DNA from: Albula goreensis
Taxonomy: Eukaryota; Chordata; Actinopteri; Albuliformes; Albulidae
DNA: 64,000 nt
Assembly (NCBI GenBank): GCA_022829145.1
Contig: CM040750.1
Coordinates: 37,124,886 to 37,188,885 of the forward strand
Reading direction: 5' to 3'
Below, one piece after another: positions 10,213-64,000 of this stretch (its first letter is position 1; every line of letters starts with the position of its first letter). A program made the translations under genes and the position numbers. The notes under the pieces were generated by a model. It was not told the DNA's origin. It did no database searches and was given only the letters and a program-made list of their open reading frames with translations.

Positions 10213-10224
10213 TTCTATCTGTTA

Positions 10225-10615: not shown

Positions 10616-10840
10616 AGAATACGTAAGAAGAAAAGTCTGAGATGAACAGATTTTCCACAGAATTCCACCTTATAACATATGCATACATCACACATCTAAT
10701 AAGGTGTGTGTGTGTGTGTGTGTATTGCATGATCATATCATATCTTATCATATAGTATGATGCTTAGCCTGTGACTCCACACTGACTCCAGTACATTCTT
10801 AAGCACACTTCACAGCAGCTTTGTGTATAACTGTGAACAG

Positions 10841-10979
10841 GCTGGGTGTTTACTGACACATGAGCTGACATCATCATTCTGAGACTGCTGGGTGTTTACT
10901 GACACATGAGCTGACATCATCATTCTGAGACTGCTGGGTGTTTACTGACACATGAGCTGACATCATCATTCTGAGACTA
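10841..10979. repeat. 46-bp tandem repeat, 3 copies
   Basis: Three tandem 46-bp units containing TGACACATGAGCTGACATCA. Confidence 0.9.
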
Positions 10980-11261
10980 CTCTCCTTCCTTCTTTTCATG
11001 GGCCGAAGTGCAGACAGGAAGTACCCAAGCAGAACGTACTGCACCACATTGCCAAATGCATAGGAACACAAGTATTTCAGTGCAAAACATGCTGTGATGA
11101 ATCTTTTCACATGCCATGAAAGAGTGCTATCCATTATAATAGACGATATTATATACATTAATAGACGTATTTACACCCATGACATGGCTGGAATCTCTTA
11201 AATTGGAACAATGTAAGTATTTCTTCTGAGGAATGCAATATTTCTCAATCACTCACTCCCT

Positions 11262-11548
11262 CCCACACACACACACAAACACAGACACACACATATTCAC
11301 ACACACGCACACACACATACTCGCACACACGTACACGCACCCACACACACTCGCACACATACACAAACACACACACACAGCACACATACACATACACAAA
11401 CGTACAGTTACACAGACACACACACACTCTCACAGACACACACACACACACACGTGCACGCACACACAGACGCACACACACACACACGTGCACTCACACA
11501 GACACACACACTCACGCTTATACTCACACACACGCACACACAAAAAAA
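11262..11548. repeat. CA-rich microsatellite
   Basis: Interrupted (CA)n with CG, CT and TA variants. Long open frames here are artefacts of the dinucleotide repeat. Confidence 0.95.
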
Positions 11549-11789
11549 AACCCCACAGAAATACATCTTTTTTCATTCTAACAGCTATCCAACCAACACA
11601 CAATACACAAAATGTCCCAAACAAATCAAATGAAATATTTTTACATTCATTTATAGCTTTTATTTCAGTATATTATGGACTGCATCAAATATAATGAACA
11701 CATTTAATGCCCAGAGCCTATTCAGCATGTATCAGAGTTACAGAAATTCAGAACACAGCCTTGTTTAACAGCTAATTGAATGAGGAAGT

Positions 11790-11966
11790 AGCAGAAACAC
11801 ACAGCAGTTCTGTACAGCAGTTTAGCAGAAACACACAGCAGTTCTGTACAGTAGATTAGCAGAAACACACAGCAGTTCTGTACAGCAGTTTAGCAGAGAC
11901 ACACAGCAGTTCTGTACAGTAGATTAGCAGAAACACACAGCAGTTCTGTGTAGTAGATTAGCTTTA
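11790..11966. repeat. 34-bp minisatellite, ~5 copies
   Basis: Units containing AGAAACACACAGCAGTTCTG. It lies in receptor 3' flank. Confidence 0.9.
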
Positions 11967-12252
11967 GAAGAGTCTCCCTTCCATCCTAAAATCCATCAGT
12001 TGTTTTCTCTGCAGATTCTCTCCTCTGTGTATTTCAGTCGCACACTGAGGCCTGAGCAGCTCGCTAAAGTGCTGAGTTTGTGTCACTGGCTGTGCTTCTC
12101 ATGCTCTGAAAACAGGAACACACTCAGTCACACAGTTACACCCAGAAATACTGTTAACCATACAGATATGCTTATTCTTGTACATCAGCACTCACATAAA
12201 CTGCGTTGGTTGGTGACAAACAGTCAACATATAATTTTTATATGCTGGCAAA

Positions 12253-12348
12253 TTAAGACACCTTCACGTTCAGAGTGTCATAGTCAGGTGATGCAGCGGC
12301 CAGGTTGAGACCTGTGTAGGTGTCATCTTGGGGGTCAGGATGAGCACT
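12253..12348 (-). pseudogene. Orphan receptor tail exon
   Basis: A complete duplicate of the last tail exon (96 nt with stop, DDTYTGLNL and SPDYDTLNVK) with its acceptor. It has no upstream receptor exons: immediately beyond it the sequence jumps to the start of duplication unit 2. It is probably unused, although it could serve as an alternative terminal exon. Confidence 0.65.
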
Positions 12349-12597
12349 CTGTAGAAGGAAGTGATGTCACTGAGATCATAAATGTAATTGAATAATTTTT
12401 TAGCAAGTAGTGTATTTATTTGTATTTTAAACAATTCATTTAAATATTTAAACAATTTTATCTTAAATAATTAATGTTGCTGTTTTTGGAGCTGACTTGA
12501 TCTGTCTCCTGCTCAAAATGTTTCTTCACAAGGTGAAACTTATCTGTGAATAACAGCATAGATTCACTTTTACCTGAATAGTTATTTCTATCTGTTA

Positions 12598-12988
12598 TAA
12601 ATGTGCAGTGATATGTTTTAGATCCGTCAGTCTGAGGGTGCTCTCTTGCTCCATATTCCCCGGATACTCCACACAGCCTCTGTACTCACAGGCAGGGGAG
12701 TAGCTAGAAATTCTGGGCCCTGTGCACAGGCAGACTCTGAGGGCCCCTCCACTCTTTATAAAAAAAAATCCCAGACTTTCACGGGCCCCTTCAAACCCCT
12801 TCGAGCCCTGTAACTTAGTACCCTCTTCCCCTGGTGCTATGCCCCAGCTCACTGGTGTCAGACAGATCATGATTACTTTCTAAATACCAGACTGCTTGTT
12901 CTACTGTATTATCAGAGGGATATGAGTAAGTACAGGACGCTTCCATATTATCTCAGAGATATAAGTCAAACTCCACATTCGCTCACAT
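12598..12988 (-). pseudogene. Dead Siglec-type V exon, interrupted by a transposon (copy 2)
   Basis: Near-identical duplicate of the dead V exon at 10,225-10,615, carrying the same insertion at the same base. The insertion is therefore older than the 2.4-kb duplication. Confidence 0.7.
12693..12847. mobile_element. hAT-like miniature inverted-repeat element (copy 2)
   Basis: Same 155-bp element, same flanking 8-bp repeats, carried along by the tandem duplication. Start reads CAGGGGAGTAGC. Confidence 0.65.
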
Positions 12989-13212
12989 AGAATACGTAAG
13001 AAGAAAAGTCTGAGATGAACAGATTTTCCACAGAATTCCACCTTATAACATATGCATACATCACACATCTAATAAGGTGTGTGTGTGTGTGTGTGTATTG
13101 CATGATCATATCATATCTTATCATATAGTATGATGCTTAGCCTGTGACTCCACACTGACTCCAGTACATTCTTAAGCACACTTCACAGCAGCTTTGTGTA
13201 TAACTGTGAACA

Positions 13213-13350
13213 GGCTGGGTGTTTACTGACACATGAGCTGACATCATCATTCTGAGACTGCTGGGTGTTTACTGACACATGAGCTGACATCATCATTCTG
13301 AGACTGCTGGGTGTTTACTGACACATGAGCTGACATCATCATTCTGCGAC
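13213..13350. repeat. 46-bp tandem repeat, 3 copies (duplicate)
   Basis: Same repeat as 10,841-10,979 in duplication unit 2. Confidence 0.9.
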
Positions 13351-13631
13351 TGCTCTCCTTCCTTCTTTTCATGGGCCGAAGTGCAGACAGAAAGTACCCA
13401 AGCAGAACGTACTGCACCACATTGCCAAATGTATCGGGACACAAGTATTTCAGTGCAAAACATGCTGTGATGAATCTTTTCACATGCCATGAAAGAGTGC
13501 TATCCATTATAATAGACGATACATTAATAGACGTATTTACACCCATGACATGGCTGGAATCTCTTAAATGGGAACAATGTAAGTATTTCTTCTGAGGAAT
13601 GCCGTATTTCTCAATCATTCACTCCCTCCCT

Positions 13632-13832
13632 CCCACACACACACATACACAGACACACGCACACACACACATACTCGCACACACGCACACGCACCCACAC
13701 ACACTCGCACACATACACAAACACACACGTACACTTACACAGACACACACACACACACTCTCACAGACACACACTCACACACACACGTGCACGCACACAC
13801 AGACGCACACACACACACACGCACACACAAAA
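13632..13832. repeat. CA-rich microsatellite (duplicate, shorter)
   Basis: Counterpart of the array at 11,262 in duplication unit 2. Confidence 0.95.
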
Positions 13833-14074
13833 AAACCCACAGAAATACATCTTTTTTCATTCTAACAGCTATCCAACCAACACGCAATACACAAAATGTC
13901 CCAAACAAATCAAATGAAATATTTTTACATTCATTTATAGCTTTTATTTCAATATATTATGGACTGCATCAAATATAATGATCAAATTTAATGCCCAGAG
14001 CCTATTCAGCATGTATTCAGCAGAGAACAGCAATTCAGAGAACAGCCTTGTTTAACAGCTAATTGAATGAGGAA

Positions 14075-14486
14075 GTAGCAGAAACACACAGCAGTTCTGT
14101 ACGGCAGTTTAGCAGAAACACTCAGCAGTTCTGTACAGTAGATTAGCAGAAAAACACAGCAGTTTTGTACAGTAGTTTAGCAGAAACACACAGCAGTTCT
14201 GTACAGTAGATTAGCAGAAACACACAGCAGTTCTGTACAGTAGATTAGCAGAAACACACAGCAGTTCTGTACAGTAGTTTAGCAGAGACACACAGCAGTT
14301 CTGTACAGTAGTTTAGCAGAAACACACAGCAGTTCTGTACAGCAGTTTAGCAGAGACACACAGCAGTTCTGTACAGTAGATTAGCAGAGCCACACAGCAG
14401 TTCTGTTCAGTAGATTAGCAGAAACACACAGCAGTTTTGTACAGCAGTTTAGCAGAGACACACAGCAGTTCTGTGTAGTAGATTAT
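14075..14486. repeat. 34-bp minisatellite, ~12 copies
   Basis: Expanded version of the array at 11,790, just downstream of copy B's last exon. Confidence 0.9.
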
Positions 14487-25170: not shown

Positions 25171-25373
25171 GATTGGCTACCCACCAATCCACTAAATTGT
25201 TAGGAATCACTTTCTTGCTAAACATTGTGTCAAAGTCAAAAGAATGCATAGTTTTTGAAATTGTTTGCTGTTGTTCATTGTTTTGCTTGTTAGCATGGTT
25301 TCCACAGATACATGACAGTCTCAGGGTTTGGACCTGGGCTGCTGTGGTGGGGCCTCTTCCCTATGTAATTCAC

Positions 25374-25655
25374 ACTGACTGCGCAGCTCTGCTTCACTCT
25401 GTGCTCCTGCAACACACTGACTGCGCAGCTCTGCTTCACTCTGCGCTCCTGCAACACACTGACTGCGCAGCTCTGCTTCACTCTGTGATCCTGAAACACA
25501 CTGACTGTGCAGCTCTGCTTCACACTGTGCTCCTGCAACACACTGACTGCGCAGCTGTGCTTCACTCTGTGCTCCTCCAACACACTGACTGCGCAGCTCT
25601 GCTTCACTCTGCGCTCCTGCAACACACTGACTGCGCAGCTCTGCTTGTAACTCCA
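25374..25655. repeat. 42-bp minisatellite, ~6.5 copies
   Basis: Unit containing CACACTGACTGCGCAGCTCT. Period 42 keeps frames open on both strands, which is not evidence for coding. The same unit forms the array at 37,069. Confidence 0.92.
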
Positions 25656-30032: not shown

Positions 30033-33000
30033 GTACGTCTCTCCCCGTGTGTGCTGTGTGTTTATATCAAAGACAGCCATGGCTCTCTGATAGTAGAAGC
30101 TCCTTGTCGTGGAGATCAGAACAGCAGAGTCTCTGACCACCTTTAAAGACAGATATAAGACTCGTCTGTGAACTGAATATCATTTTACAATGTGTGTACT
30201 TCAGCTTACAAAGTACACACATCGTAAGATATGGACAAGTTCCTTGCTGCATTTCTAAAGATAAACGAGGAGAAATCAGTGATTTAAGAATGTGGTTTTG
30301 GGAACCTCATGATGGGTGGAGCTACTCTAAGCTGTCAGTCTTTGCCAGAACCAATCATAAAGTTATGCTGTATGCACTAAAGCACAATGATTGGTTCAAC
30401 ACATTCAGGGACTGTAATAATATGGTAGCTCCACACTTTTGTGGTACCATTAAGTCTGATACTCTTATCACTAATACAGACTTCGCAGCAGACGGCCTTG
30501 CTCATCCAAATTTGGAAAAGGGAAAAAATCAAGCCTGTCCTCTTTTCTTCCTAAACCAATCCTGGTTTCTCCTAAATATATAGTAAATGCATTTTCATGT
30601 GAATCTCAGTAGTTTCTCTGCAGAGTGTCTGAACCAATCAAATGTTGCATTTACAGTGTTTTAACTTGGTGCATTTTAACAGACAAAAGAGTGAGAATGT
30701 TTGTTGCATTTTGGTGTGCTTGTGAAACAATGTTAAATGAGAAAACCCTTAGTTGTTCTCTGAAATTGAATGAAAACTCTTCTCGCTCTTTTGTTCACCC
30801 ATCTTGTCATACAGAGAATGTATCTTTGCATGGTGGAAGACATACCTAACCTGGGTTAAAATTGAATGAAACTGGGAGTATAGGGGACTGAAACACAGTG
30901 GACTGGGAGCATAGGACACTGAAACATAGTGGTCTGGGAGCATAGGGCACTGAGACATAGGGCACTGGGAGCATAGGACACTGAAACATAGGGCACTGAA
31001 ACATAGTAGACTGGGAGCATAGGACACTGAAACATAGGGCACTGGGAGCATAGGGCACTGAAACATAGTGGACTGGGAGCATAGGGCACTGAAACATAGT
31101 GGACTGGGAGCATAGGGCACTGAAACACAGTGGACTGGGAGCATAGGGCACTGAAACATAGGGCACTGGGAGCATAGGGCACTGAAACACAGTGGTCTGG
31201 GAGCATAGGGCACTGAAACATAGGGCACTGGGAGCATAGGGCACTGGGAGCATAGGGCACTGAAACATAGGGCACTGGGAGCATAGGGCACTGAAACATA
31301 GGGCACTGGGAGCATAGGACACTGAAACATAGGGCACTGGGAGCATAGGGCACTGAAACATAGTGGACTGGGAGCATAGGGCACTGAAACATAGTGGACT
31401 GGGAGCATAGGGCACTGAAACACAGTGGACTGGGAGCATAGGGCACTGAAACATAGGGCACTGGGAGCATAGGGCACTGAAACACAGTGGTCTGGGAGCA
31501 TAGGGCACTGAAACATAGGGCACTGGGAGCATAGGGCACTGAAACATAGGGCACTGGGAGCATAGGGCACTGAAACTTAGGACACTGAAACATCTGGCAC
31601 TGGGAGCATAGGGCACTGAAACATAGTGGACTGGGAGCATAGGGCACTGAAACACAGTGGACTGGGAGCATAGGGCACTGAAACATAGGGCACTGGGAGC
31701 ATAGGGCACTGAAACACAGTGGTCTGGGAGCATAGGGCACTGAAACATAGGGCACTGGGAGCATAGGGCACTGGGAGCATAGGGCACTGAAACATAGGGC
31801 ACTGGGAGCATAGGGCACTGAAACTTAGGACACTGAAACATCTGGCACTGGGAGCATAGGGCACTGAAACATAGGGCACTGGGAGCATAGGGCACTGAAA
31901 CACAGTGGTCTGGGAGCATAGGGCACTGAAACATAGGGCACTGGGAGCATAGGGCACTGAAACATAGTGGACTGGGGGTATAGGACACTGAAACATAGTG
32001 GACTGGGAGCATAGGGCATTGAAACACAGTGGACTGGGAGCATAGGACACTGAAACACAGGGGACTGGGAGCATAGGGCACTGAAACATAGTGGACTGGG
32101 AGCATAGGACACTGAAACATATGGCACTGGGAGCATAGGGCACTGAAACATATGGCACTGGGAGCATAGGGCACTGAAACATAGGGCACTGGGAGCATAG
32201 GGCACTGAAACATAGGGCACTGGGAGCATAGGGCACTGAAACATAGTGGACTGGGAGCATAGGGCACTGAAACATAGGGCACTGGGAGCATAGGGCACTG
32301 AAACACAGTGGTCTGGGAGCATAGGGCACTGAAACATAGGGCACTGGGAGCATAGGGCACTGAAACATATGGCACTGGGAGCATAGGGCACTGAAACATA
32401 GGGCACTGGGAGCATAGGGCACTGAAACATAGGGCACTGGGAGCATAGGGCACTGAAACATAGTGGACTGGGAGCATAGGGCACTGGGAGCATAGGGCAC
32501 TGAAACTTAGGGCACTGGGAGCATAGGGCACTGAAACTTAGGACACTGAAACATAGGGCACTGGGAGCATAGCGCACTGAAACATAGTGGTCTGGGAGCA
32601 TAGGGCACTGAAACTTTTTTAATGAAACCTTTTCTTGCCTCTCTGCCTCTCTACCCCTTCCCCATGTCCCCATACAGTGAATGTGGCTCTGCGCGGGAAG
32701 GCGACTCAGTCAGTTCTTTATCATCAGGGAAATTCCCCCCATTATTCAGCGTTCAGTCAGCCGGATCATGCCATCGATGGGAACCGAGATTCCCACTGGC
32801 ATCATGGGTCCTGCACCCACACTGCCAGTGTGCCCAACCCCTGGTGGAGGGTGGACCTGTTAAAGCCGTACAAAATAGTCTCTGTCACCATCACCAACAG
32901 ACAAGACTGCTGTGCGGAAAGGATAAATGGAGCCCAGATCCGCATCGGAAACTCCCTGGAAAACAACGGAATCGACAATCCAGTGTAGGTATCAGAATGT

Positions 33001-36881: not shown

Positions 36882-37839
36882 CCCTGGGAAACAACGGAAT
36901 CAACAATCCACTGTAAGTGCAAGCATGTGTCACCCAAAGCTGTGTGTTAAATTATTTCTTTTCTCTGTGTGGGATGCTCACCTGTGTTCTTACACCTGTC
37001 TCTTCACTCCAGCATCTTCTGTCAGTTCAGGAGAGCTCAGACAACTACACTCCACTCAGCGGCATCTGCTTCACTCTCTGCTCCTGCAACACACTGACTG
37101 CACAGCTCTGCTTCACTCTGCACTCCTCCAACACACTGACTGCGCAGCTCTGCTTCAGTCTGTGCTCCTGCAACACACTGACTGCGCAGCTCTGCTTCAG
37201 TCTGTGCTCCTGCAACACACTGACTGCGCAGCTCTGCTTCACTCTGTAGTCCTGCAACACACTGACTGCGCAGCTCTGCTTCAGTCTGTGCTCCTCCAAC
37301 ACACTGACTGCACAGCTCTGCTTCACTCTGTGCTCCTCCAACACACTGGCTGCGCAGCTCTGCTTCATTAACTTAATCTCTCCCCTTTAAAATTCCTATC
37401 ACTTTTTATTCTCTTGTGACCTGATATTAATGGTTTTTATGCATTATTAATACACGCGTACCTTGTGTATTAATGCTTTTAATTGTCTTCCTTTCATGTT
37501 CTATTTTTGAAGCTCTTTGAACAATGTTGTATGTATGAAAGGTGCTCTATGAATGAAGGTAGATGGTTGGTTGGTGATTATTATAATAATATGTAATATG
37601 ACATTTATCATAAAGAAGAGTTACGTCTATTGTTCAAATGCCGTCCCTGTTCTGTGTTTCCTTCCGCTTGCAGGCGCTGTGAAATCAGTTTTATGGGTGC
37701 AGAGGTGACTGTAACCTTACCATGTGCTCAGCCAATGGAGGGCCTCTATGTTAATGTGCACCTCCCACACAAAGAAGCTCTGACGCTCTGTGATGAGGGG
37801 GTGAATCCTGAGGGGAACCAGGAAGCCACTTGCCAGTAG
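36882..37839 (+). pseudogene. Degraded fucolectin F3
   Basis: Two pieces: the last 31 nt of lectin exon 2 (36,882-36,912, SLGNNGINNPL, with a good gtaagt donor) and a whole last exon (37,674-37,839). The exon keeps an open frame and its acceptor but has lost hallmarks: GRYVTV became EGLYVNV and [11 protein letters not shown] became LTLCDEGVNPE. The signal exon and most of the lectin exon are missing. The intron between holds a 42-bp minisatellite. Confidence 0.72.
37069..37367. repeat. 42-bp minisatellite, ~7 copies (second site)
   Basis: Same unit as 25,374-25,655, here inside the F3 relic's intron. Confidence 0.92.
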
Positions 37840-39951: not shown

Positions 39952-40358
39952 CCCTGAAACATAGGGCACTGAAACATAGGGCACTGGGAGCATAGGGCAC
40001 TGAAACATAGGGCACTGGGAGCATAGGGCACTGAAACATAGGGGACTGGGAGCATAGGGCACTGAAACATAGGGCACTGGGAGCATAGGGCACTGAAACA
40101 TAGGGGACTGGGAGCATAGGACACTGAAACATAGGGCACTGGGAGCATAGGGCACTGAAACATAGGGCACTGGGAGCATAGGGCACTGAAACATAGGGCA
40201 CTGGGAGCACAGGGCACTGAAACATAGGGCACTGGGAGCATAGGGCACTGAAACATAGGGCACTGGGAGCATAGGGCACTGAAACATAGGGCACTGGGAG
40301 CATAGGGCACTGAAACATAGGGCACTGGGAACACAGGGCACTGAAACTTAGGGCACAA
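39952..40358. repeat. 31-bp minisatellite, ~13 copies (second site)
   Basis: The same 31-bp unit as in F2 intron 1, about 7.3 kb away and not flanked by lectin exons. Units here are more uniform. Confidence 0.95.
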
Positions 40359-49747: not shown

Positions 49748-50352
49748 CTACCCCAGTCGGCACAGGGACACTGTGGAGTCCCACACTGCAAACCCAGCAC
49801 AGAGGGGTTGGTTTTCACTGAAGTTCACACGGTCTCTGTACAGGAGGGTCAGTGTGCCTGGGTCAGTGACGCTGTAGAAGGACAGAGTGCCGGCCGGACG
49901 GTCCACATACACGCCCACTCTGAACACGCTCTCTCCTGAAGTGCGGTAGGCGGAGGGTGGAGCAGCTATGTCCGTTTTCTTCTTGTTGTGACAGACAGAG
50001 TATCTATGTTCAGAGCACTTGAGAATCCAGGAGTTTTTGTTGCGTCCGAACTCGCAGTCAGCACCCAGACCTTTCCTGCTGATGCCTTTGAGTGTGACAG
50101 CTATAGAGACCCAGCCTCCCTCAGGCTCGCTCCAGTCAGGTTTACTCCACTCCGCCTCCCTCCACTCCGCCTCCCAGTAACAGCGTCCCGTCAGACTCTC
50201 CCTGCACATAACCTGGGGGTGGGACTTAAATCTCTCTGCATGGTCTGGATATGGCTGCTGCCTCCCCAGGGTGTGTGTCACCTTCCTGTTCCTCTCACAC
50301 AGAGACAGCTCTCTGTGTGCTGTGTCCGGATCCAGTTTGAGCCGACGGGCAT
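49748..50352 (-). CDS. NLR exon: PRY-SPRY (B30.2) domain and stop
   Basis: 605 nt. [75 protein letters not shown] and [16 protein letters not shown] 15-base tandem duplication gives EAEWREAEW, adding five residues at a loop. Ends in TAG. It may act as the ligand-recognition end of the NLR. Confidence 0.9.
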
Positions 50353-50689
50353 CTGCAGACCAAAAGTGTGAATGAATTTAATCACCATCAATATTCATGG
50401 AATTTCGTGTTTAAATGACCGCTTGTGTGTGAAAGCAAAATGGACTTATATTTATTTGTGTTCCTGCTTCATGTAAACAGATAAAATGACCTATATGATC
50501 ACAGGAGACACACACACGCAAATGCACACACACACACACGCACGCACACACGCTGTGTGTGAAAGCAAAATGGACTTATATTTATTTGTGTTCCTGCTTC
50601 TGTGTGTGTGTGTGTGCGCACGTGCATGCATGTGTGTGTGTGTGTGTGTGCATTTGTGTGTGTGTGTATGTGTGTGTGTGCATTTGTGT

Positions 50690-50767
<78 letters not shown>

Positions 50768-53700
50768 GTGTGTACCCATAGTTGGGTTCATCAGGAGACA
50801 CACACACACACACACAAACACACACAGTACAGTCATGAATGTACGGAAGGACTATACATACAGATATGTGGACGTGGACACATACACACACACACACACA
50901 CTTTCACACACAAATGCACACACACACACACACTCACACACACAAATGCACACACACACACACTCACACACACAAATGCACACACACACACACTCACACA
51001 CACAAATGCACACACACACATACACACACACACAAATCACACACACAAATGCACACACACACACACACACAAATGCACACACACATACACACACACACAA
51101 ACCCACACACACACAAAGTACAGTAATGAATGTATGGAAGGTCTTCTGTACACATACAGATATGTGGACGTGTGTCACTGTGAAATACTGTTTGTGACAG
51201 AGAGAAAGCAGAGGAAATGGAGGGAGTGAGAGTTCAAGGATGACTCACATTTCCTGGGTCCTGATTGGTTCGTGCTCTCTCCTCCATGGTCCACACTGTT
51301 GGAACAGCAGAACAGACAGTGTCTGAGTGACACAGTGTGGAAACTCTCTGTACTTACAGCAGTGTGTCTATGAGGTGCAGTGTGGAATCTCTCTGTACTT
51401 ACAGCAGTGTGTCTATGAGGTTCAGTGTGGAAACTCTCTGTACTTACAGCAGTGTGTCTATGAGGTGCAGTGTGGAAACTCTCTGTACTTACAGCAATGT
51501 GTCTATGAGGTGCAGTGTGGAAACTCTCTGTACTTACAGCAGTGTGTCTATGAGGTGCAGTGTGGAAACTCTCTGTACTTACAGCAGTGTGTCTATGAGG
51601 TGCAGTGTGAAAACTCTCTGTACTTACAACAGTGTGTCTATGAGGTGCAGTGTGGAAACTCTCTGTACTTACAGCAGTGTGTCTATGAGGTGCAGTGTGG
51701 AAACTCTCTGTACTTACAGCAGTGTGTCTATGAGGTGCAGTGTGGAAACTCTCTGTACTTACAGCAGTGTGTCTATGAGGTTCAGTGTGGAAACTCTCTG
51801 TACTTACAGCAGTGTATCTATGAGGTACAGTGTGGAAACTCTCTGTACTTACAGCAGTGTGTCTATGAGGTGCAGTGTGGCAACTCTCTGTACTCACAGC
51901 AGTGTGTCTATGGGGTGCAGTGTGGAAACTCTCTGTACTTACAGCAGTGTGTCTATGAGGTGCAGTGTGGAAACTCTCTGTACTTACAGCAGAGTGTCAA
52001 CTCTCTGTACTTACAGCAGTGTGTCTATGAGGTGCAGTGTGGGAACTCTCTGTACTTACAGCAGTGTGTCTATGAGGTGCAGTGTGGAAACTCTCTGTAC
52101 TTACAGCAGTGTGTCTATGAGGTTCAGTGTGGAAACTCTCTGTACTTACAGCAGTGTATCTATGAGGTACAGTGTGGAAACTCTCTGTACTTACAGCAGT
52201 GTGTCTATGAGGTGCAGTGTGGAAACTCTCTGTACTTACAGCAGTATGTCTATGAGGTGCAGTGTGGAAACTCTCTGTACTTACAGCAGTGTATCTATGA
52301 GGTGCAGTGTGGAAACTCTCTGTACTTACAGTAGTGTGTCTATGAGGTGCAGTGTGGAAGCTCTCTGTACTTACAGCAGTGTAAGTGTGTCCAGTTTAGC
52401 AGTAGAGAGCGCTCTCTCTCCTGAGTCTCCTGGGTGATTGTAGCTCAGATCCAGCTCTCTCAGGTGTGAGGGGTTTGAACGCAGAGCTGATGCCAACCAA
52501 TCACAGCCTCTCTCTGTGACTCGACAGCCTGACAGCCTGCAGAGAGAAGGAGACCAGCCTTGGATAAATACGGTTTATAGTAGGTGAATACATTATAAAA
52601 GGGCTGTGGGAATAGTTCATTACACCTATCCAGCAATTAATCTGTTTTTTAACCAAACTTTTGGTTATCTTACATCTAATTACCATAAAATTCACATATA
52701 AGTCCAGGAAATATTGTGTTACCTTCTGGAAATTGTTATCTACTGTCTGTCAGCACAGTAGAAATATTGCTCACAATAATATTTTTCAACTTCTTCACCC
52801 TTAAAGAAAACTGGGATTTCTGCTTCTGTCCCACTCACCCCAGTTTCTGAAGTTTACAGTGTGGGTCCTCCAGTCCAGTAGAGAGCGCTCTCACTCCTGA
52901 ATCCTGCAGGTCATTGTCTCTGAGCTCCAGGTCTCTCAGCGCTGAGTGCGGAGAATGCAGGACTGCAGCCAGATCAAAACAGCAGCCCTCAGTGAGATTA
53001 CACCAACCCAGCCTGTGGAGAGCATGTACAGACACTATAAAAATACACACCAGCCCAGCCTGTGGAGAGCATGTACAGACACTATGAAAATACACACCAG
53101 CCCAGCCTGTGGAGAGCATGTACAGACACTATGAAAATACACACCAGCCCAGCCTGTGGAGAGCATGTACAGACACTATGAAAATACACACCAGCCCAGC
53201 CTGTGGAGAGCATGTACAGACACTATAAAAATACACACCAGCCCAGCCTGTGGAGAGCATGTACAGACACTATAAAAATACACACCAGCCCAGCCTGTGG
53301 AGAGCATGTACAGACACTATGAAAATACACACCAGCCCAGCCTGTGGAGAGAATGTACAGACACTATGAAAATACACACCAGCCCAGCCTGTGGAGAGCA
53401 TGTACAGACACTATAAAAATACACACCAGCCCAGCCTGTGGAGAGCATGTACAGACACTATAAAAATACACACCAGCCCAGCCTGTGGAGAGCATGTACA
53501 GACACTATAAAAATACACAGCAGCCCAGCCTGTGGAGAGCATGTACAGACACTATAAAAATACACACCAGCCCAGCCTGTGGAGAGCATGTACAGACACT
53601 ATAAAAATACACACCAGCCCAGCCTGTGGAGAGCATGTACAGACACTATAAAAATACGCACCAACCAATATACATGTCTTATAAGCTGTCCAAATTAACT

Positions 53701-56700
53701 GTCGGTAACACTTTAGGTTGGGTAATGCAAAAAAAAGCATATAAACACATTATTGGGTGGTTTATAATCACTTGTAATCAGTTTATGAATCATTATGTAT
53801 GATTTGCATAACACAGGTTGAGCTTGGTAAGCACTATTGACTTCCTGATGCCTGTGCCAGGTCAAAGGTCACCTAGAAGGCTGATCAATTGTGGTTAAAA
53901 AGTCAAACCTACCTCAGCCATAGACAGAGTAATTTAGTAACGTTCACTAACTCATCAGCCAATCAAACATAGTGATTAATAAACAGGTGACTAATGACTA
54001 TAAAGTATTTATTGTTGTATTTATAAATGTTTTTTTCATTACCAAATCTAAGTGTTACTTATCTGTTCTGTAATAACTTTTTCATCTACTGCAGAGATTT
54101 CTTGCTAACAAATAGTAGTTGTTTAAAGTTCCTCTGTACACAGTCATAATCACTAATTCTGTTTGCTGAAGGATACAAAGAAGTTAGCATTTCTCACCCC
54201 AGTGTCTGTAGTTTACAGGTTGGACTCTTTAGTCCAGAACAGAGAACCTTCACTCCTGAATCTCCTGTGCGATTGTAGCTAAGGTCCAGTCTCTGTAGTT
54301 TGCAGTTTGGACTCTTCAGTGCGGCACAGAGCAGCTTCATTCCTGAATATCCCAGGTTATTGTAGCTGAGGTCCAGCTCTCTCAGGGGTGAGCTTGATGA
54401 CTGAAGAGCTGAGGCCACAATTTCACAGACCTGCTCTTTAAGATCACAGCTGTCCAGTCTACAAAGAAAAGTCGATGTTTTGTATTCTATCATTAAATAT
54501 GACAATGGGACCCTTTGGATGGTGATATATTCTGTTTACTTGACTGTATGTTCAATGGAAAGCAGGCACTTGCAGAAATATTTTTCTGGGTCCTTTGACT
54601 TCCAGATTTCATTGGTGGCATCATGAACTAAATACTGTGAAGACATTCAAAAGATATTAAAGATACTATTGAGATCTGGTCAAATTTTTTTTCTTCTCAG
54701 AATTTTTTAACTAAAATATTAAATTTGTCATTGTCAATCATTTCTATTACAATTAAAATAACAGTACTCACTTGGCCTTCCTGCAGTTCCTGATAGCAGG
54801 GAGCAGTCTCTGCCGACCAGCTGCTGATGTGTTGTACGTCTTCAAGTCAAACTCATCCAGGACCTCCTCTGACATCAGCAACACAAAGGCCAGAGCTGAG
54901 CATTGGTGTGGTTCCAGCTCTTTATCAGAAAGTCTTCCTGATCTCAGGGAAGTCTGGATTTCCTCCACTAGAGAGTTGTCATTCAGTTCATTCAGGCAGT
55001 GGAACAGGTTGATGGTCCTCTCTGCTGAAGATTCCTCTCTGATCTTCTGCTTCATGTACCGGGATGTTTCCTCAATGATCTCTGATCTACTTTCTGTGGG
55101 CTTAAACATTCTTACTAATGACTTCATGAGTGATCTACGTCCTGTCTGCATCAATGGGCCAGACACAGGCGAACCACTTCCCGTTTGCGTCAGCAGTTCC
55201 CCTAAGAGAGTCTGAGTGGACTCCAGTGTGAGGCCCAGAAGGAATCGGAGGAAAAGGTCCAGGTGTCCATTCTTACTCTGTAAGGCCTGATTCACTGCAA
55301 CCCTGTGTACCTCAGACAGCTGAATTCTTTCACGAGGAGATCTTGAATCTTCTGGTCTGAGTGCATTTCTGTTCTCATTTACACATGAATAAAACACAAA
55401 CAAGGCAGCCAGAAACTCCTGAATGCTCAGATGCACAAAGCAGTAGACTTTCTCCTGATGCAACCCAGACTCCTCTTTAAAGATTTCTGTGCACACCCCA
55501 GAGTACACTGAAGCTTCACTGACATCAATGCCACTCTCTCTCAGGTCCTCTTCATAGAATATCAGATTGCCCTTTTCCAGCTGTACAAAAGCCAGCTTCC
55601 CCAGTTTCAGGATCATTTCTGTATCTGACGCTGAGATCTTCTCTGGGTTTGTCTCACTGGTGCCATGATACTTCTGACTCTTCATATTTGTCTGAATGAG
55701 CAGGAAGTGTGTGTACATTTCAGTCAGAGTTTTGGGGAGTTTCCTGCTATCTACCTTACCCAACAATGTCTCCAGAACTGTAGCAGAGATCCAGCAGAAG
55801 ACTGGAATGTGACACATGATATGGAGACTCCTGGATGACTTTATGTGTGAGATAATTCTGCTGGCCAGGTTACAATCTTTGATTCTCTTGCCAAAATACT
55901 TCTCTTTTTGTGGGTCAGTGAACCCTCGTACCTCTGTCACCTGGTGGACACACTCAGGAGGGATCTGATTGGCTGCTGCTGGTCGGGAGGTGATCCAGAG
56001 GAGAGCAGAGGGAAGCAGATTCCCCTGAATGAGGTTGGTCAGCAGCACGTCCACTGATGCTGACTCTGTTACATCACAGCAGATCTCATTGTTCTGGAAA
56101 TCTAGAGGAAGTCGACACTCATCCAGTCCATCAAAGATGAACACAACTTTGACTTCATCATGTTCAACACGTTCAATCTCTTTCAGCTGTGGAAAGTAGT
56201 GCTGGAGGAGTTGCATCAGACTGAACTCTCCCTCCTTCTTCAAATTCAAGTCTCGGAAAGGAAGAGTGAAGATGAAATGGATGTCCTGATTGGCTTTTCC
56301 TTCTGCCCAGTCCAGAATGAACTTCTGCACAGAGACAGTTTTCCCAATGCCAGCGATGCCCTTTGTAAGCACAGTTCTGATGTGTTTCTCCTGTCCAGGT
56401 AAAGGTTTAAAGATGTCATTGCAGAGGATTGCAGTCTCCTGTGTGGTTTGTCTCTTGGATGCTGCCTCAATCTGTCTGACCTCATGTTCATTATTGACCC
56501 CCCCACCTCCTCCCTCTGTGATGTAGAGCTCTGTATAGATCTCATTGAGGAGGGTTGGGTGGCCCTGCTGTACCAAACCTTCAAATATGCATTCAAACTT
56601 CTTCTTCAGATCAGATTTCAGTGTCTGTTTGGTTCTTTGTATGTATTCACCTGAGGAGGAAAAACATGAAAAACCGTTTCACATAACTTTGAAACTGAGA

Positions 56701-59700
56701 TATCGAATATCAGGAATACACCGTCAGTCTTTCACAGTATTATGAATTCTTCACAATGTGTTAAATCTATCAGTGTTGAGTCACAGAAGAATTTTTATGG
56801 CTCTATGTATGGTGTTGTTGAGCCATGACAGGCTAACACGCTAAGGTTGCTGTTTTCATCCTCAGGGTAAATGGGGGCTGGTCAGAGTAAATAATTAAAA
56901 AACCAAAACATACTGTTCAAATCTTTTTACACATTTTGAGTTAAAGAGTACATGTAAAATGGCAGTGTTTTACAGAACACATTTTTCATTCTACATACTA
57001 CTAAAATGTCCATGCATGACACAGGTAAGGTTCATTTTGAGAACAACATTTGAGAATGTGCACAGGATAATAAATGCAGCACAGCGGTTAAGCATTTTAA
57101 TTAAAACACAATTATAATGAGACTAACTGTTACTCTTCTGTTCATCTCTCTCCAGTGGGCCCATGAGATCCTTCTGCTTCATGTTCCTCAGGATGTGGAG
57201 TGTGATCTTCAGAGACCTCTCACTGCCAAAGGTCTCCAGCATCTTCTCAACTATGTGCAGAGCTTCCAGGTCCTCCTGTTGTCTCTCAGTGCATTCTGGG
57301 TAATACTGGCTCAGACCGCTCAGAAACCATCTCAGCTCTTTCTTCCTCAGCTTCATCAGTGTGTGCTGGAGAGACTGAAGTAAACACAAGAGGATATATG
57401 CTGTATCACATTATAAAATAATATACAGTTTGTTAACTGTTAATAAATGTGAAACACTGTCTTAAGTAATGTGTCTATTAAGCATTTATTAACTATATGC
57501 ATGTTGATTACTAAAATGCCAGTCTGTTTTATCATATGGAGTGTGGACTTCAATATAGATACTTCATTGACTGGGAAAGATGGTATTATCTTTGTAAATG
57601 TTTCATAAAGGGCAAACAACTTTATTTTCAACTTCCTTTTTCATTATAAAAAAATATTAAACATCTGTAAAAATTCCAAATAAAAGAATTCACCATGATG
57701 GAACAGCTAACTTCCATTGCCAGTTAAAAAAGAAAAGAAGCCATACAAACATTAATTATAGTTATTCATTATGGATATTATGTACCCCAGATGTCATCTT
57801 CAAAAGGAACTGTACAATAACAAAAGGAATACAATAAATAAATAGAATTACATAGGAAATAAAGGTACCTTTTTTGTAGGTGCAAACTGACATGGACTCC
57901 TCTTTTCTAGATCAAATGATGGTAGGGAACCCTGGACCCTGTAAATAGAATATGGAAATGAAAGAATTAACCTCATCCTCTTACTGCAGCTCTAACTCAC
58001 AACACATGGAGACAGAGATTTGTTACTTTTATTTTTAATTTTACCTTGGATCACCTGTGATCACTCCTGTGAACTTAAGTGGTGGTTCGATTGACCAGTC
58101 ACTCTTCATTGACACACAGCTGGGTACAGGTGACCCAGATCTTTCCTGTTGGACCCTGTGACCAAAAAATGGAGACAGAGCTTCCTGTAAACCTCATCCT
58201 CTTTTTGCAGCTCTAACTCACAGCACATGGAGACAGAGCTTCCAGTTAACCTCATCCTCTTATTGCAGCTCAAACTCACAGCACATGGAGACAGAGCTTC
58301 CAGTTAACCTCATCCTCTAACTGCAGCTCTAACTCACAGCACATGGAGACAGAGCTTCCAGTTAACCTCATCCTCTTACTGCAGCTCTAACTCACAGCAC
58401 ATACAGACAGAGCTTCCAGTTAACCTCATCCTCTTATTGCAGCTCTAACTCACAGCACATGGAGACAGAGCTTCCAGTTAACCTCATCCTCTTACTGCAG
58501 CTCTAACTCACAGCACATGGAGACAGAGCTTCCAGTTAACCTCATCCTCTTACTGCAGCTCTAACTCACAGCACATGGAGACAGAGCTTCCAGTTAACCT
58601 CATTCTCTTACTGCAGCTCCAATTCACAGCACATGGATACAAAGATTAGTTACTTTTTTATTTTACCTTGGATCTCCTGTGAATTTCAGTGGTTGTTCCA
58701 TTGACCAGTCACTCTTCATTGTCACACAGCTGGGTATAGGTGACCCAGATCTTTCCTGCTGGACCCTTTGACCAAAACATGGAGACACAGTTTCCTGTTA
58801 ACCTCATCCTCTTACTGCAGCTCTAACTCACAGCACATGGAGACAGAGCTTCCAGTTAACCTCATCATCTTACTGCAGCTCTAACTCACAGCACATGGAG
58901 ACAGAGATTTGTTACTTTTATTTTTAATTTTACCTTGGATCACCTGTGATCACTCCTGTGAACTTAAGTGGTGGTTCGATTGACCAGTCACTCTTCATTG
59001 ACACACAGCTGGGTACAGGTGACCCAGATCTTTCCTGTTGGACCCTGTGACCAAAACATGGAGACAGAGCTTCCTGTAAACCTCATCCTCTTTTTGCAGC
59101 TCTAACTCACAGCACATGGAGACAGAGCTTCCAGTTAACCGCATCCTCTTACTGCAGCTCTAACTCACAGCACATGGAGACAGAGCTTCCAGTTAACCTC
59201 ATCCTCTTACTGCAGCTCTAACTCACAGCACATGGAGAAAGAGCTTCCAGTTAACCTCATCCTCTTACTGCAGCTCCAATTCACAGCACATGGATACAAA
59301 GATTAGTTACTTTTTTATTTTACCTTGGATCTCCTGTGAATTTCAGTGGTTGTTCCATTGACCAGTCACTCTTCATTGTCACACAGCTGGGTATAGGTGA
59401 CCCAGATCTTTCCTGCTGGACCCTTTGACCAAAACATGGAGACACAGTTTCCTGTTAACCTCATCCTCTTACTGCAGCTCTAACTCACAGCACATGGAGA
59501 CAGAGCTTCCAGTTAACCGCATCCTCTTACTGCAGCTCTAACTCACAGCACATGGAGACAGAGATTTGTTACTTTTATTTTTAATTTTACCTTGGATCAC
59601 CTGTGATCACTCCTGTGAACTTAAGTGGTGGTTCGATTGACCAGTCACTCTTCATTGACACACAGCTGGGTACAGGTGACCCAGATCTTTCCTGTTGGAC

Positions 59701-62118
59701 CCTGTGACCAAACATGGAGACACAGTTTCTGTTAACCTCATCCTCTTACTGCAGCTCTAACTCACAGCACATGGAGACAGAGCTTCCAGTTAACCTCATC
59801 CTCTTACTGCAGCTCTAACTCACAGCACATGGAGACAGAGCTTCCAGTTAACCTCATCCTCTTATTGCAGCTCTAACTCACAGCACATGGAGACAGAACT
59901 TCCAGTTAACCTCATCCTCTTACTGCAGCTCTAACTCACAGCACATACAGACAGAGATTTGTTACTTTTATTTTTAATTTTACCTTGGATCACCTGTGAT
60001 CACTCCTGTGAATTTAAGTGGTGGTTCGATTGACCAGTCACTCTTCATTGACACACAGCTGGGTACAGGTGACCCAGATCTTTCCTGTTGGACCCTGTGA
60101 CCAAAACATGGAGACAGAGCTTCCAGTTAACCGCATCCTCTTACTGCAGCTCTAACTCACAGCACATGGAGACAGAGCTTCCAGTTAACCTCATCCTCTT
60201 ACTGCAGCTCTAACTCACAGCACATGGAGACAGAGCTTCCAGTTAACCTCATCCTCTAACTGCAGCTCTAACTCACAGCACATGGAGAAAGAGCCTCCAG
60301 TTAACCTCATCCTCTTACTGCAGCTCTAACTCACAGCACATGGAGACAGAGCTTCCAGTTAACCTCATCCTCTTACTGCAGCTCTAACTCACAGCACATG
60401 GAGACAGAGCTTCCAGTTAACCTCATCCTCTAACTGCAGCTCTAACTCACAGCACATGGAGACAGAGCTTCCAGTTAACCTCATCCTCTTACTGTAGCTC
60501 TAACTCACAGCACATGGAGAAAGAGCTTCCAGTTAACCTCATCCTCTTACTGCAGCTCCAATTCACAGCACATGGATACAAAGATTAGTTACTTTTTTAT
60601 TTTACCTTGGATCTCCTGTGAATTTCAGTGGTTGTTCCATTGACCAGTCACTCTTCATTGTCACACAGCTGGGTATAGGTGACCCAGATCTTTCCTGCTG
60701 GACCCTTTGACCAAAACATGGAGACACAGTTTCCTGTTAACCTCATCCTCTTACTGCAGCTCTAACTCACAGCACATGGAGACAGAGCTTCCAGTTAACC
60801 TCACCCTCTTACTGCAGCTCTAACTCACAGCACATGGAGACAGAGATTTGTTACTTTTATTTTTAATTTTACCTTGGATCACCTGTGATCACTCCTGTGA
60901 ACTTAAGTGGTGGTTCGATTGACCAGTCACTCTTCATTGACACACAGCTGGGTACAGGTGACCCAGATCTTTCCTGTTGGACCCTGTGACCAAAACATGG
61001 AGACACAGTTTCCTGTTAACCTCATCCTCTTACTGCAGCTCTAACTCACAGCACATGGAGACAGAGCTTTCAGTTAACCTCATCCTCTTACTGCAGCTCT
61101 AACTCACAGCACATGGAGACAGAGCTTCCAGTTCACCTCATCCTCTTACTGCAGCTCTGACTCACAGCACATGGAGACAGAGCTTCCAGTTAACCTCATC
61201 CTCTTACTGCAGCTCTAACTCACAGCACATGAAGACAGAGCTTCCAGTTAACCTCATCCTCTTACTGCAGCTCTAACTCACAGCACATGGAGACAGAGCT
61301 TCCAGTTAACCTCATCCTCTTATTGCAGCTCGAACTCACAGCACATGGAGACAGAACTTCCAGTTAACCTCATCCTCTTACTGCAGCTCTAACTCACAGC
61401 ACATACAGACAGAGCTTCCAGTTAACCTCATCCTCTTACTGCAGCTCTAACTCACAGCACATGGAGACAGAGCTTCCAGTTAACCTCATCCTCTTACTGC
61501 AGGTCTAACTCACAGCGCATGGAGACAGAGCTTCCAGTTAACCTCATCCTCTTACTGCAGCTCTAACTCACAACAAATGGAGACAGAGATTTGTTACTTT
61601 TATTTTTAATTTAACCTTGGATCACCTGTGATCACTCCTGTGAACTTAAGTGGTGGTTCGATTGACCAGTCACTCTTCATTGACACACAGCTGGGTACAG
61701 GTGACCCAGATCTTTCCTGTTGGACCCTGTGACCAAAACATGGAGACAGAGCTTCCAGTTAACCTCATCCTCTTACTGCAGCTCTAACTCACAGCACATG
61801 GAGACAGAGCTTCCAGTTAACCTCATCCTCTTACTGCAGCTCTAACTCACAGCACATGGAGACAGAGCTTCCAGTTAACCTCATCCTCTCACTGCAGCTC
61901 TAACTCACAGCACATGGAGACAGAGCTTCCAGTTAACCTCATCCTCTTACTGCAGCTCTCACTCACAGACATGGAGACTGAGATTACAGTTGATTTTTTC
62001 ATTATACCTTGGATCACCTGTGAACTGCCCTCTAAATTTCAGCGGTTGTTCCATTGACCAGTCACTCTTCATTGTCACACAGCTGGGTATAGGTGACCCA
62101 GATCTTTCCTGTTGGACC
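49748..62118 (-). CDS. NLRC3-like NLR gene: N-terminal repeats, PYD-like, FISNA-NACHT, LRR, B30.2
   Basis: Seventeen visible exons on the minus strand join without a frame break to 1,504 codons plus stop. The order is ten exons of a 33-37 residue repeat ([15 protein letters not shown] type), a 70-nt linker exon, a pyrin-like exon, a FISNA-NACHT exon with intact Walker A and B motifs, three LRR exons, a short VDHGGE exon and a PRY-SPRY exon. This is the standard plan of the greatly expanded fish NLRC3-like NLRs, cytosolic sensors thought to act in inflammasome or NF-kB control. The start codon is not in view; it may lie beyond the 85-bp array. Minisatellites sit in at least three introns. Confidence 0.88.
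50500..51118. repeat. (GT)n and (CA)n microsatellite region with CAAATGCACA subrepeats
   Basis: GT-rich to about 50,770 then CA-rich, an inverted arrangement either side of a short unique segment (50,775-50,875), with segments duplicated (agtaatgaatgta... at both ends). Lies in the NLR intron before the B30.2 exon. Confidence 0.93.
51249..51295 (-). CDS. NLR exon: VDHGGE linker
   Basis: 47 nt, acceptor tccaacag, donor gtgagt, reading [21 protein letters not shown] is the conserved junction between LRR and B30.2 in fish NLRC3-like proteins. Phases match both neighbours (2 in, 1 out), giving K-Y at the B30.2 start. Confidence 0.8.
51327..52384. repeat. 45-bp minisatellite, ~23 copies, containing a copy of the LRR 3 donor
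   Basis: Unit containing GTGTCTATGAGGTGCAGTGT and TACTTACAGCAGT. On the gene strand each unit has ctgct/gtaagta, the donor used by LRR 3. Period 45 gives 15-residue repeats open on both strands (up to 366 codons). Confidence 0.93.
52375..52536 (-). CDS. NLR exon: LRR 3 (3' end reshaped by minisatellite)
   Basis: [18 protein letters not shown] and [19 protein letters not shown] are clear. Instead of the usual LEDPHC ending, the exon reads [10 protein letters not shown] into the first units of the 45-bp array, where a gtaagt donor keeps phase 2. It is 162 nt, so 12 nt shorter than usual but in frame. Confidence 0.7.
52839..53012 (-). CDS. NLR exon: LRR 2
   Basis: 174 nt, the usual length of single LRR exons in this family, phase 2-2, with [11 protein letters not shown] and [19 protein letters not shown]. 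Its 5' splice acceptor lies inside the first unit of the 47-bp minisatellite. Confidence 0.85.
53012..53660. repeat. 47-bp minisatellite, ~14 copies, containing the LRR 2 acceptor
   Basis: Unit containing CAGCCTGTGGAGAGCATGTA. On the gene strand each unit reads ctctccacag/gctgg, a copy of the real acceptor of the LRR 2 exon. Confidence 0.93.
53661..54197 (-). other. NLR intron, no feature
   Basis: AT-rich intron between LRR 2 and LRR 1; nothing recognised. Confidence 0.6.
54198..54458 (-). CDS. NLR exon: LRR 1
   Basis: 261 nt, phase 2-2, with [19 protein letters not shown] and [22 protein letters not shown]-type ribonuclease-inhibitor-like LRRs. Confidence 0.88.
54459..54771 (-). other. NLR intron, no feature
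   Basis: Intron between LRR 1 and the NACHT exon; nothing recognised. Confidence 0.6.
54772..56650 (-). CDS. NLR exon: FISNA and NACHT domains
   Basis: 1,879 nt. FISNA starts [18 protein letters not shown] and continues through the [18 protein letters not shown] signature. Walker A GIAGIGKT is at 56,337-56,360; Walker B FIFDGLDE is at 56,118-56,141. Later NACHT elements [39 protein letters not shown] and [14 protein letters not shown] are all present. A run of glycines ([12 protein letters not shown]) marks the FISNA/NACHT linker. No stop or missing key residue, so ATPase function looks intact. Confidence 0.93.
56651..57133 (-). other. NLR intron, no feature
   Basis: Intron between the NACHT and pyrin-like exons; nothing recognised. 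Confidence 0.6.
57134..57374 (-). CDS. NLR exon: pyrin-like death-fold domain
   Basis: 241 nt entering in phase 0 from the linker exon, leaving in phase 1. The residues [25 protein letters not shown] and [16 protein letters not shown] fit a six-helix PYD. Donor AGA/gtaaca. Joined to the next exon it reads DEQKSEYIQR, in frame. Confidence 0.7.
57375..57868 (-). other. NLR intron, no feature
   Basis: AT-rich intron between the pyrin-like and linker exons; nothing recognised. Confidence 0.6.
57869..57938 (-). CDS. NLR linker exon
   Basis: 70 nt: [20 protein letters not shown] and then PTKK. The first residues (RVQ) mirror the start of the repeat exons. Phase 2 in, 0 out. Confidence 0.7.
58045..58155 (-). 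CDS. NLR N-terminal repeat exon 1 (111 nt)
   Basis: [20 protein letters not shown], then [17 protein letters not shown]. Phase 2-2, so any number of copies can be added or skipped without changing frame. Confidence 0.8.
58667..58765 (-). CDS. NLR N-terminal repeat exon 2 (99 nt)
   Basis: Short form: ends [10 protein letters not shown], lacking VITG. The acceptor is AAAG rather than CACAG, weaker. Confidence 0.7.
58934..59044 (-). CDS. NLR N-terminal repeat exon 3 (111 nt)
   Basis: Long form, near-identical to exon 1 of the series. Confidence 0.78.
59324..59422 (-). CDS. NLR N-terminal repeat exon 4 (99 nt)
   Basis: Short form with the AAAG acceptor. Confidence 0.7.
59591..59701 (-). CDS. 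NLR N-terminal repeat exon 5 (111 nt)
   Basis: Long form. Confidence 0.78.
59984..60094 (-). CDS. NLR N-terminal repeat exon 6 (111 nt)
   Basis: Long form, one silent difference (AAATTC for AAGTTC). Confidence 0.78.
60606..60704 (-). CDS. NLR N-terminal repeat exon 7 (99 nt)
   Basis: Short form with the AAAG acceptor. Confidence 0.7.
60873..60983 (-). CDS. NLR N-terminal repeat exon 8 (111 nt)
   Basis: Long form. Confidence 0.78.
61616..61726 (-). CDS. NLR N-terminal repeat exon 9 (111 nt)
   Basis: Long form. The donor is GTTAAA instead of GTAAAA, probably weaker, so this copy may be skipped. Confidence 0.68.
62008..62118 (-). CDS. NLR N-terminal repeat exon 10 (111 nt), most 5' in view
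   Basis: Diverged long form ending [14 protein letters not shown]. Transcript-wise this is the first visible exon; it still needs an upstream exon with a start codon. Confidence 0.72.
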
Positions 62119-62373
62119 CTGTGAAGAGAACATGGAGAAACCGTTTCCAGTTAACTTCATCCTCTTACTGCAGCTCTAACCCACAACATATGGAGACAGA
62201 GCTTCCAGTTAAAATTCTTTTTTTGAAAACCTTTGGTTTAAACTGCATATTGATGATATAGTAAAAAAAAGTTGACAGCAAACCTTGGTTTCTATTATCA
62301 CAAAAAATCCTTCTTCTCTTGTGAAGCCAAACACAGAAGCATCCCAGCCACATTTCTACCAATGATCGATTCC
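62119..62373. other. NLR 5' intron or flank
   Basis: One last 58-bp-like unit, then unique sequence. I found no leader exon or start codon that joins in frame. Confidence 0.4.
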
Positions 62374-64000
62374 AGTGTGCATGCCTCCTCCTCTCCTTTC
62401 AGTGCTGTGGACTCAGTGTCCCATGGTGCACTGTGCTTTATCACTTATGCTAGGTGCATGCCTCCTCCTCTCCTTTCAGTGCTGTGGACTCAGTGTCCCA
62501 TGGTGCACTGTGCTTTATCACTTATGCTAGGTCTCTCTATGCATGCCTCCTCCTCTCCTTTCAGTGCTGTGGACTCAGTGTCCCATGGTGCACTGTGCTT
62601 TATCACTAATGCTAGGTCTCTCTATGCATGCCTCCTCCTCTCCTTTCAGTGCTGTGGACTCAGTGTCCCATGGTGCACTGTGCTTTATCACTTATGCTAG
62701 GTCTCTCTATGCATGCCTCCTCCTCTCCCTTTCAGTGCTGTGGACTCAGTGTCCCATGGTGCACTGTGCTTTATCACTTATGCTAGGTCTCTCTATGCAT
62801 GCCTCCTCCCTCTCCTTTCAGTGCTGTGGACTCAGTGTCCCATGGTGCACTGTGCTTTATCACTTATGCTAGGTCTCTCTATGCATGCCTCCTCCTCTCC
62901 TTTCAGTGCTGTGGACTCAGTGTCCCATGGTGCACTGTGCTTTATCACTTATGCTAGGTCTCTCTATGCATGCCTCCTCCCTCTCATTTCAGTGCTGTGG
63001 ACTCAGTGTCCCATGGTGCACTGTGCTTTATCACTTATGCTAGGTCTCTCTATGCATGCCTCCTCCTCTCCTTTCAGTGCTGTGGACTCAGTGTCCCATG
63101 GTGCACTGTGCTTTATCACTTATGCTAGGTCTCTCTATGCATGCCTCCTCCTCTCATTTCAGTGCTGTGGACTCAGTGTCCCATGGTGCACTGTGCTTTA
63201 TCACTTATGCTAGGTCTCTCTATGCATGCCTCCTCCTCTCCTTTAAGTGCTGTGGACTCAGTGTCCCATGGTGCACTGTGCTTTATCACTTATGCTAGGT
63301 CTCTCTATGCATGCCTCCTCCTCTCATTACAGTGCTGTGGACTCAGTGTCCCATGGTGCACTGTGCTTTATCACTTATGCTAGGTCTCTCTATGCATGCC
63401 TCCTCCTCTCATTTCAGTGCTGTGGACTCAGTGTCCCATGGTGCACTGTGCTTTATCACTTATGCTAGGTCTCTCTATGCATGCCTCCTCCTCTCCTTTC
63501 AGTGCTGTGGACTCAGTGTCCCATGGTGCACTGTGCTTTATCACTTATGCTAGGTCTCTCTATGCATGCCTCCTCCTCTCCTTTCAGTGCTGTGGACTCA
63601 GTGTCCCATGGTGCACTGTGCTTTATCACTTATGCTAGGTCTCTCTATGCATGCCTCCTCCTCTCCTTTCAGTGCTGTGGACTCAGTGTCCCATGGTGCA
63701 CTGTGCTTTATCACTTATGCTAGGTCTCTCTATGCATGCCTCCTCCTCTCCTTAAGTGCTGTGGACTCAGTGTCCCATGGTGCACTGTGCTTTATCACTT
63801 ATGCTAGGTCTCTCTATGCATGCCTCCTCCTCTCCTTTCAGTGCTGTGGACTCAGTGTCCCATGGTGCACTGTGCTTTATCACTTATGCTAGGTCTCTCT
63901 ATGCATGCCTCCTCCTCTCCTTTCAGTGCTGTGGACTCAGTGTCCCATGGTGCACTGTGCTTTATCACTTATGCTAGGTCTCTCTATGCATGCCTCCTCC
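62374..64000. repeat. 85-bp minisatellite, ~19 copies, running off the window
   Basis: Very homogeneous 85-bp unit containing GTGCTGTGGACTCAGTGTCC. On the plus strand each unit has a pyrimidine tract ending in ctcctttcag, a splice-acceptor-like signal on the strand opposite to the NLR. Short open frames of 80 or so codons are repeat artefacts. Confidence 0.95.

Follow-up and report, generated by a model that had tools for sequence, protein, structure and literature searches.

The locus examined here raises the question of whether the minisatellites lying against the exons of an NLR gene of Albula goreensis are built from the gene's own splice sites, and what would follow if the surplus copies were used. 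The window, that is, the whole 64,000-nt stretch of DNA that was analysed, contains a PYRIN-FISNA-NACHT-LRR-B30.2 gene on the minus strand, extending from about 62,124 to 49,748 and delineated by Pfam, BLAST and a joined reading frame. Its exons, all on this strand, follow the order ten N-terminal repeats, PYRIN, FISNA-NACHT-winged helix-HD2, double LRR, LRR 2, LRR 3, linker, and B30.2. The N-terminal repeat exons (58008..62118), detected as 10 matches in a BLAST search with the repeat exon, are separated by introns with 58-bp units. They are followed by the PYRIN exon, with approximate borders at 57150..57380 (PF02758, E 2.7e-10), and by one large open exon (54772..56650) in which PF14484 (E 5e-35) and PF05729 (E 4e-32) were found together with PF17779 and PF17776. 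Further downstream are single-exon LRRs and a B30.2 exon: the double LRR exon (LRR 1, 54198..54458) matched LRR_6, and the B30.2 (PRY-SPRY) exon (49748..50352, including the stop codon) was identified by PF13765, PF00622, and the frame. LRR 2 alone gave 21.8 bits, below the LRR_6 cut-off of 23.4. Joining LRR 2, LRR 3, the 47-nt linker exon encoding VDHGGES (51249..51295), and the B30.2 exon at the predicted sites produced a single open frame, and both borders of the LRR exons are in phase 2. One long TG run and one long AC run, oppositely oriented, occur in the intron that separates the linker from the B30.2 exon (50601-51115); they could form a long hairpin by pairing in the pre-mRNA.

Fish NLR-B30.2 (NLR-C) receptors are described, in the accessible sections of PMC4852459 and PMC11192531, as having FISNA-NACHT, LRR exons, B30.2, N-terminal repeats, and, in some, a PYD. 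The window gene is of this type, since it combines FISNA and NACHT in one exon, single-exon LRRs followed by B30.2, and N-terminal repeat exons, and it shares the domain and exon plan including the PYD; FISNA is a fish-specific domain by its Pfam name. Many receptor genes of the same type are present in the 932-Mb genome, where a search for NACHT gave at least 99 matches above the cut-off, the best 99 of 259 candidates having been scored.

Splice junctions within the minisatellites

The 47-bp array (53000..53663, minus strand) was reported by TRF as 14.1 copies with 98% match, and TCTCCACAGGCTGGG occurs in it exactly 14 times. Each unit consists of approximately 34 nt of intron end, terminating in CTCTCCACAG, and 13 nt of exon start, the latter (GCTGGGYTGGTGT) being the first 13 nt of the LRR 2 exon (52839..53012, 174 nt, phase 2 to phase 2, minus strand). 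Of these copies, the one closest to the exon is the real LRR 2 acceptor, as joining there keeps the frame open. A sequence-only reading of this DNA had proposed both that about 14 copies of the LRR 2 3′ splice site are present and that the true acceptor lies in the exon-nearest unit, and both proposals hold.

The 45-bp array (51333..52382, minus strand) contains 24 copies, as determined from TRF rows together with copy counts and spacing; the same reading had estimated about 23. Within it, 23 GTAAGT and 21 exact GCTGTAAGT were counted, and one step between copies is 27 bp instead of 45 bp. The unit is composed of the last 8 nt of the LRR 3 exon (ACACTGCT), GTAAGTACAG, and flank, so that the exon end does lie inside the edge of the array, as had been claimed. 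The LRR 3 exon (52375..52536, 162 nt, phase 2, minus strand) ends at the donor CT/GTAAGT (the slash marks the exon end), which is the exon-proximal copy of the array and gives an open frame. A peptide that could be read from the array in one open frame was dropped because its frame differs from that of LRR 3.

The 58-bp units between the N-terminal exons present a different case. The donor-like word noted in them is real (GCAGTAAGA 35 times and GCTGTGAGTTA 36 times), but it matches none of the gene's own donors: among the 9 of 10 repeat copies with exon borders read, the donor is AAG/GTAAAA in 8 and AAG/GTATAA in 1, and the tenth exon has AAG/GTTAAA. The arrays also stop approximately 12 nt short of the exon acceptors. 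These units thus flank splice sites and copy none of the window gene's real donors. The N-terminal exon with its 58-bp units recurs elsewhere in the genome, among the best 40 of 675 candidates scored. Six of the nine exons read are 111 nt long and three are 99 nt; the shorter ones are preceded by AAAG and the others by ACAG.

The position of the junctions determines what another copy would do. Because LRR 3 ends in phase 2 and is followed by GTAAGT, splicing at the next donor would read CTG TAA; when donor copy 2 of the window gene was translated, a stop appeared at once. Translation from acceptor copies 2, 3, and 4 gave GLGWCVF followed by L or S and then a stop, the frame closing within nine codons. 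Of the 13 upstream acceptor copies in the window's 47-bp array, not one offers an open in-frame extension. Of 185 interior acceptors in paralogs, 50 would extend the protein in frame and 133 run into a stop within the stretch read. Stop-bearing transcripts with two introns downstream are expected targets of nonsense-mediated decay. Use of a decoy would therefore lead to truncation or decay and to no exchange of domains, leaving less full-length receptor or one devoid of B30.2. The suggestion that the arrays tune inclusion of LRR and B30.2 is therefore only half right: the stops at donor copy 2 and acceptors 2-4 predict truncation or decay instead.

Arrays and copy number in the paralogs

Genome-wide pattern searches allowing up to three mismatches returned 195 LRR 2 acceptors with 683 interior acceptor copies, and 169 LRR 3 donors with 1215 interior donor copies; these are pattern matches and not a count of intact genes. 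The reversed control of each of the four patterns gave 0 matches in the genome. DNA searches with border plus array also located paralogs, on several contigs, whose corresponding borders carry arrays. From the best 40 of 728 and 40 of 665 candidates, 30 loci were taken from each search, and these samples are biased towards arrays because the queries contained the array. The 100 exact donors listed, of the 169 matches, are spread over 12 contigs. In four 7-kb stretches downstream of NACHT, the LRR 2 and LRR 3 exons were reached in one (L069).

The copies retain the essential dinucleotides. Interior donors found by similarity at 58 loci have GT in 360 of 364 cases, and interior acceptors found in the same way have AG in 183 of 185. 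The exon-proximal donor is CT/GTAAGT in 38 of 42 loci and CA/GTAAGT in 2 (three duplicate rows were excluded from this tally and three from that of the interior acceptors, which also excludes L055). At two loci the array copies are retained and the exon-proximal LRR 3 donor is changed, being CT/GTAAAC in L029 and lost or moved in L019. A chance match between arrays and exon borders was ruled out, since exon sequence forms part of the units, these turn up at the corresponding borders of paralogs, and the reversed controls gave no match. On the predicted exon structure, these results show that the units of the LRR 2 acceptor array and the LRR 3 donor array consist of junction sequence, and that a large NLR-B30.2 family carries two minisatellites derived from real exon borders with gene-specific copy number.

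The number of copies differs widely from one paralog to another, the genes examined having between 1 and 24 donors. Borders read at loci picked for the other border, a sample less biased towards arrays, showed at least 3 donor copies in 13 of 13 readable cases and a single acceptor in 7 of 19, window rows and L055 being omitted. In a sample hand-picked from coordinate lists and likewise less biased, 20 donors had 2 to 15 copies (median 4.5; six with 2 and three with 3), and 10 acceptors had 1, 1, 2, 2, 2, 3, 3, 5, 8, and at least 14 copies, the last running to the end of the stretch. Overall, 9 of 29 acceptors were single, meaning that no second copy was found within 130 nt at the similarity used. 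In L065, which has a single LRR 2 acceptor, a very long GT run lies beside the remnant of one unit.

A census was made of the 100 exact donors listed among the 169 pattern matches. An exact second copy was present in 80 and at least 5 copies in 6; counting all, a further unit was kept in 99 and a further GTAAGT copy in 98. The 14 remaining donors comprised 13 with a further unit and one single donor (L116). The next copy was altered to ATAAGT in L105 and L106, GGAAGT in L104, and GTAATT in L111, and was rearranged in L103 and L112; a later GTAAGT copy is present in each of these except L111. Although L116 has one donor only, its linker exon is present. The idea that every gene must have two or more donors, suggested by the finding of 0 single-donor cases in 72 array ends, was refuted by L116, which had been missed there because its flank diverged.

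Precedents and possible effects on splicing

The nearest known case is the VNTR in intron 18 of human ABCA7. According to the accessible text of PMC5954066, the repeat, with a 25-bp unit, runs from the border of exon 18 and takes in the real donor of that exon, one retained unit introduces a premature stop, and skipping of exon 19 rises with array length, whereas retention of the unit does not. In human IFI6 (6-16, G1P3), a minisatellite supplies several donors (Turri 1995, cited in PMC2572611 and PMC4526556), and in the accessible text of the latter two papers the downstream units are reported to serve as donors, with three mRNA species as the outcome. Both genes are precedents for donor arrays; the 45-bp array likewise begins at an exon border and holds the real donor. 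The differences, as far as those texts go, are that ABCA7 is one gene with a donor repeat only, while here acceptor and donor borders are involved in many paralogs of one receptor family, and that IFI6, also one gene, makes different isoforms from its other donors, while here the next donor reads a stop. In zebrafish, NLR-C genes are described as having a uniform exon-intron structure with a last LRR that barely differs (accessible text of PMC4852459), and the intronic sequence around their exons is said to depart strongly from the reference in many cases (accessible text of PMC11192531). Splice-site arrays are not described in the accessible sections of these two papers, and neither "minisatellite" nor "splice"/"splic" occurs in their main texts. 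Among the papers listed by literature searches, with subscription papers mostly outside their reach, none dealt with splice-site arrays in NLR genes or with acceptor arrays. The family-wide scale, the acceptor array, and the combination of acceptor and donor arrays in one gene appear to be new.

In single human genes, a repeat holding a splice donor can accompany changed splicing. The Albula genome offers a natural series of 169 donor-junction matches, with 1 to 24 copies in those examined, and the effect of copy number on splicing could be read directly from long-read RNA across these 169 loci. If the effect is real, a large receptor family would have one way of varying its output with no change of protein sequence. 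At the array borders, gene models and short-read mapping are probably unreliable.

Four explanations were weighed; they are not mutually exclusive, and the probabilities attached to them need not sum to one. The first, for which we put the chances at about even from the genomic evidence, is that the majority of copies are competent for splicing and rival the exon-proximal one, mostly losing to it and leaking into unproductive products. In the window gene the exon-proximal copy alone would yield the full receptor, while leakage to another donor, or to most acceptor copies, would run into a stop and leave a fragment devoid of B30.2 or a target of nonsense-mediated decay, so that the arrays would constitute a load of unproductive splicing. 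Further donor copies perhaps help U1 snRNP engage the LRR 3 donor, because the exonic bases of that donor, GCT, are a poor match to U1. The arrays may have been born by slippage and spread by gene duplication and conversion, and a dedicated switch would be unnecessary. They appear dispensable, since L116 keeps its linker exon with a single donor and 9 of 29 acceptors are single. Leakage proportional to copy number is disfavoured because unit retention in ABCA7 is independent of array length in the accessible text.

The second explanation, that the arrays are a passive by-product of repeat-prone junctions in a repeat-rich genome, with the exon-proximal sites used and the extra copies having no effect that matters, is a serious one, although we rate it below an even chance. 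Minisatellites make up 24% of the window (20 arrays with a period of at least 20 and at least 3 copies, hand-picked from TRF rows), and interior donor units vary evenly: substitutions amount to 0.8% in the donor word and 1.0% in the unit remainder in 216 units under wraparound alignment (p 0.34 to 0.48). A first count had suggested stronger conservation of the donor word in interior units; it was biased, since the probe used for choosing matches covered the donor and the last units extended into flank, and the suggestion was rejected. Donor units differ by 1.67% between genes and the adjacent LRR 3 exon by 1.7 to 1.8%, which fits recent shared descent of the block, and the intron before LRR 3 differs by approximately 29%; these values fit a block of LRR 3, array and linker that has recently spread through duplication or conversion. 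An identical donor-unit consensus in 27 of 30 loci was not accepted as a sign of extra constraint, because the difference between genes is about that of the LRR 3 exon and the loci were chosen by similarity. The finding of one single-donor gene and many single-acceptor genes would also be compatible with a by-product. Against it, when a symmetric model of gain and loss was fitted to 20 arrays, the fits tried predicted at least 12% single-donor genes and 1 of 100 was observed, though the genes share descent and conversion. Acceptor cores, too, have changed less than the remaining unit sequence: the interior core CTCTCCACAG was changed in fewer arrays than the unit remainder (p 0.0009, 140 units), 60 interior units from other loci had 1.5% of core sites and 5.4% of remaining sites changed (p 0.018), and the difference persisted when both sets were pooled and the columns bordering the GT run were excluded (p 0.001). 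It may be that the core mutates more slowly owing to its base composition.

Selection on the array copies is possible on these comparisons. The third explanation is an evolved dial in which a selected array length sets, per gene or allele, the share of full B30.2 receptor against stop-terminated transcript. We regard this as improbable. It would account for single donors being rarer than single acceptors (1/100 against 9/29, p 4e-6, a value that, as in all these selection tests, overstates independence because the genes share descent), for the stop built in by phase 2 and GTAAGT, and for the wide range of donor copy number. A single acceptor may, however, be the older state, donor words are no more conserved than the unit remainder, and unit retention in ABCA7 bears no relation to length in the text cited. 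The corresponding view of the whole family, in which heritable, length-variable arrays at two fixed borders are under selection, the donor being almost never single, and act as a per-gene or per-allele dial of the B30.2 receptor, is likewise doubtful.

Splicing repressors that bind UG, of the TDP-43 or CELF type, act at CFTR exon 9. The fourth explanation, that UG runs in the acceptor units recruit such repressors and that the array would thereby favour skipping of LRR 2, is the least probable. In its favour, GT runs of variable length stand in the acceptor units of the majority of paralogs examined, skipping of LRR 3 keeps the frame, the 174-nt length of LRR 2 is also a multiple of 3, and alternative splicing of LRR exons alters the activity of human NLRP3 (PMC6642158); against it, the window's own 47-bp unit has no UG run. 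NLRP3 resembles the present gene in its modular LRR exons and differs in varying by exon skipping, its abstract containing no tandem splice-site array.

Other tandem repeats were observed in the window. An 85-bp array of approximately 18 copies (62455-64000) lies upstream of the N-terminal repeat exons and crosses the window end. In the left part of the window, matching tandem-repeat units are paired within 10053-14485, between 25371-25646 and 37065-37367, and between 30941-32614 and 39960-40356, which points to duplicated segments.
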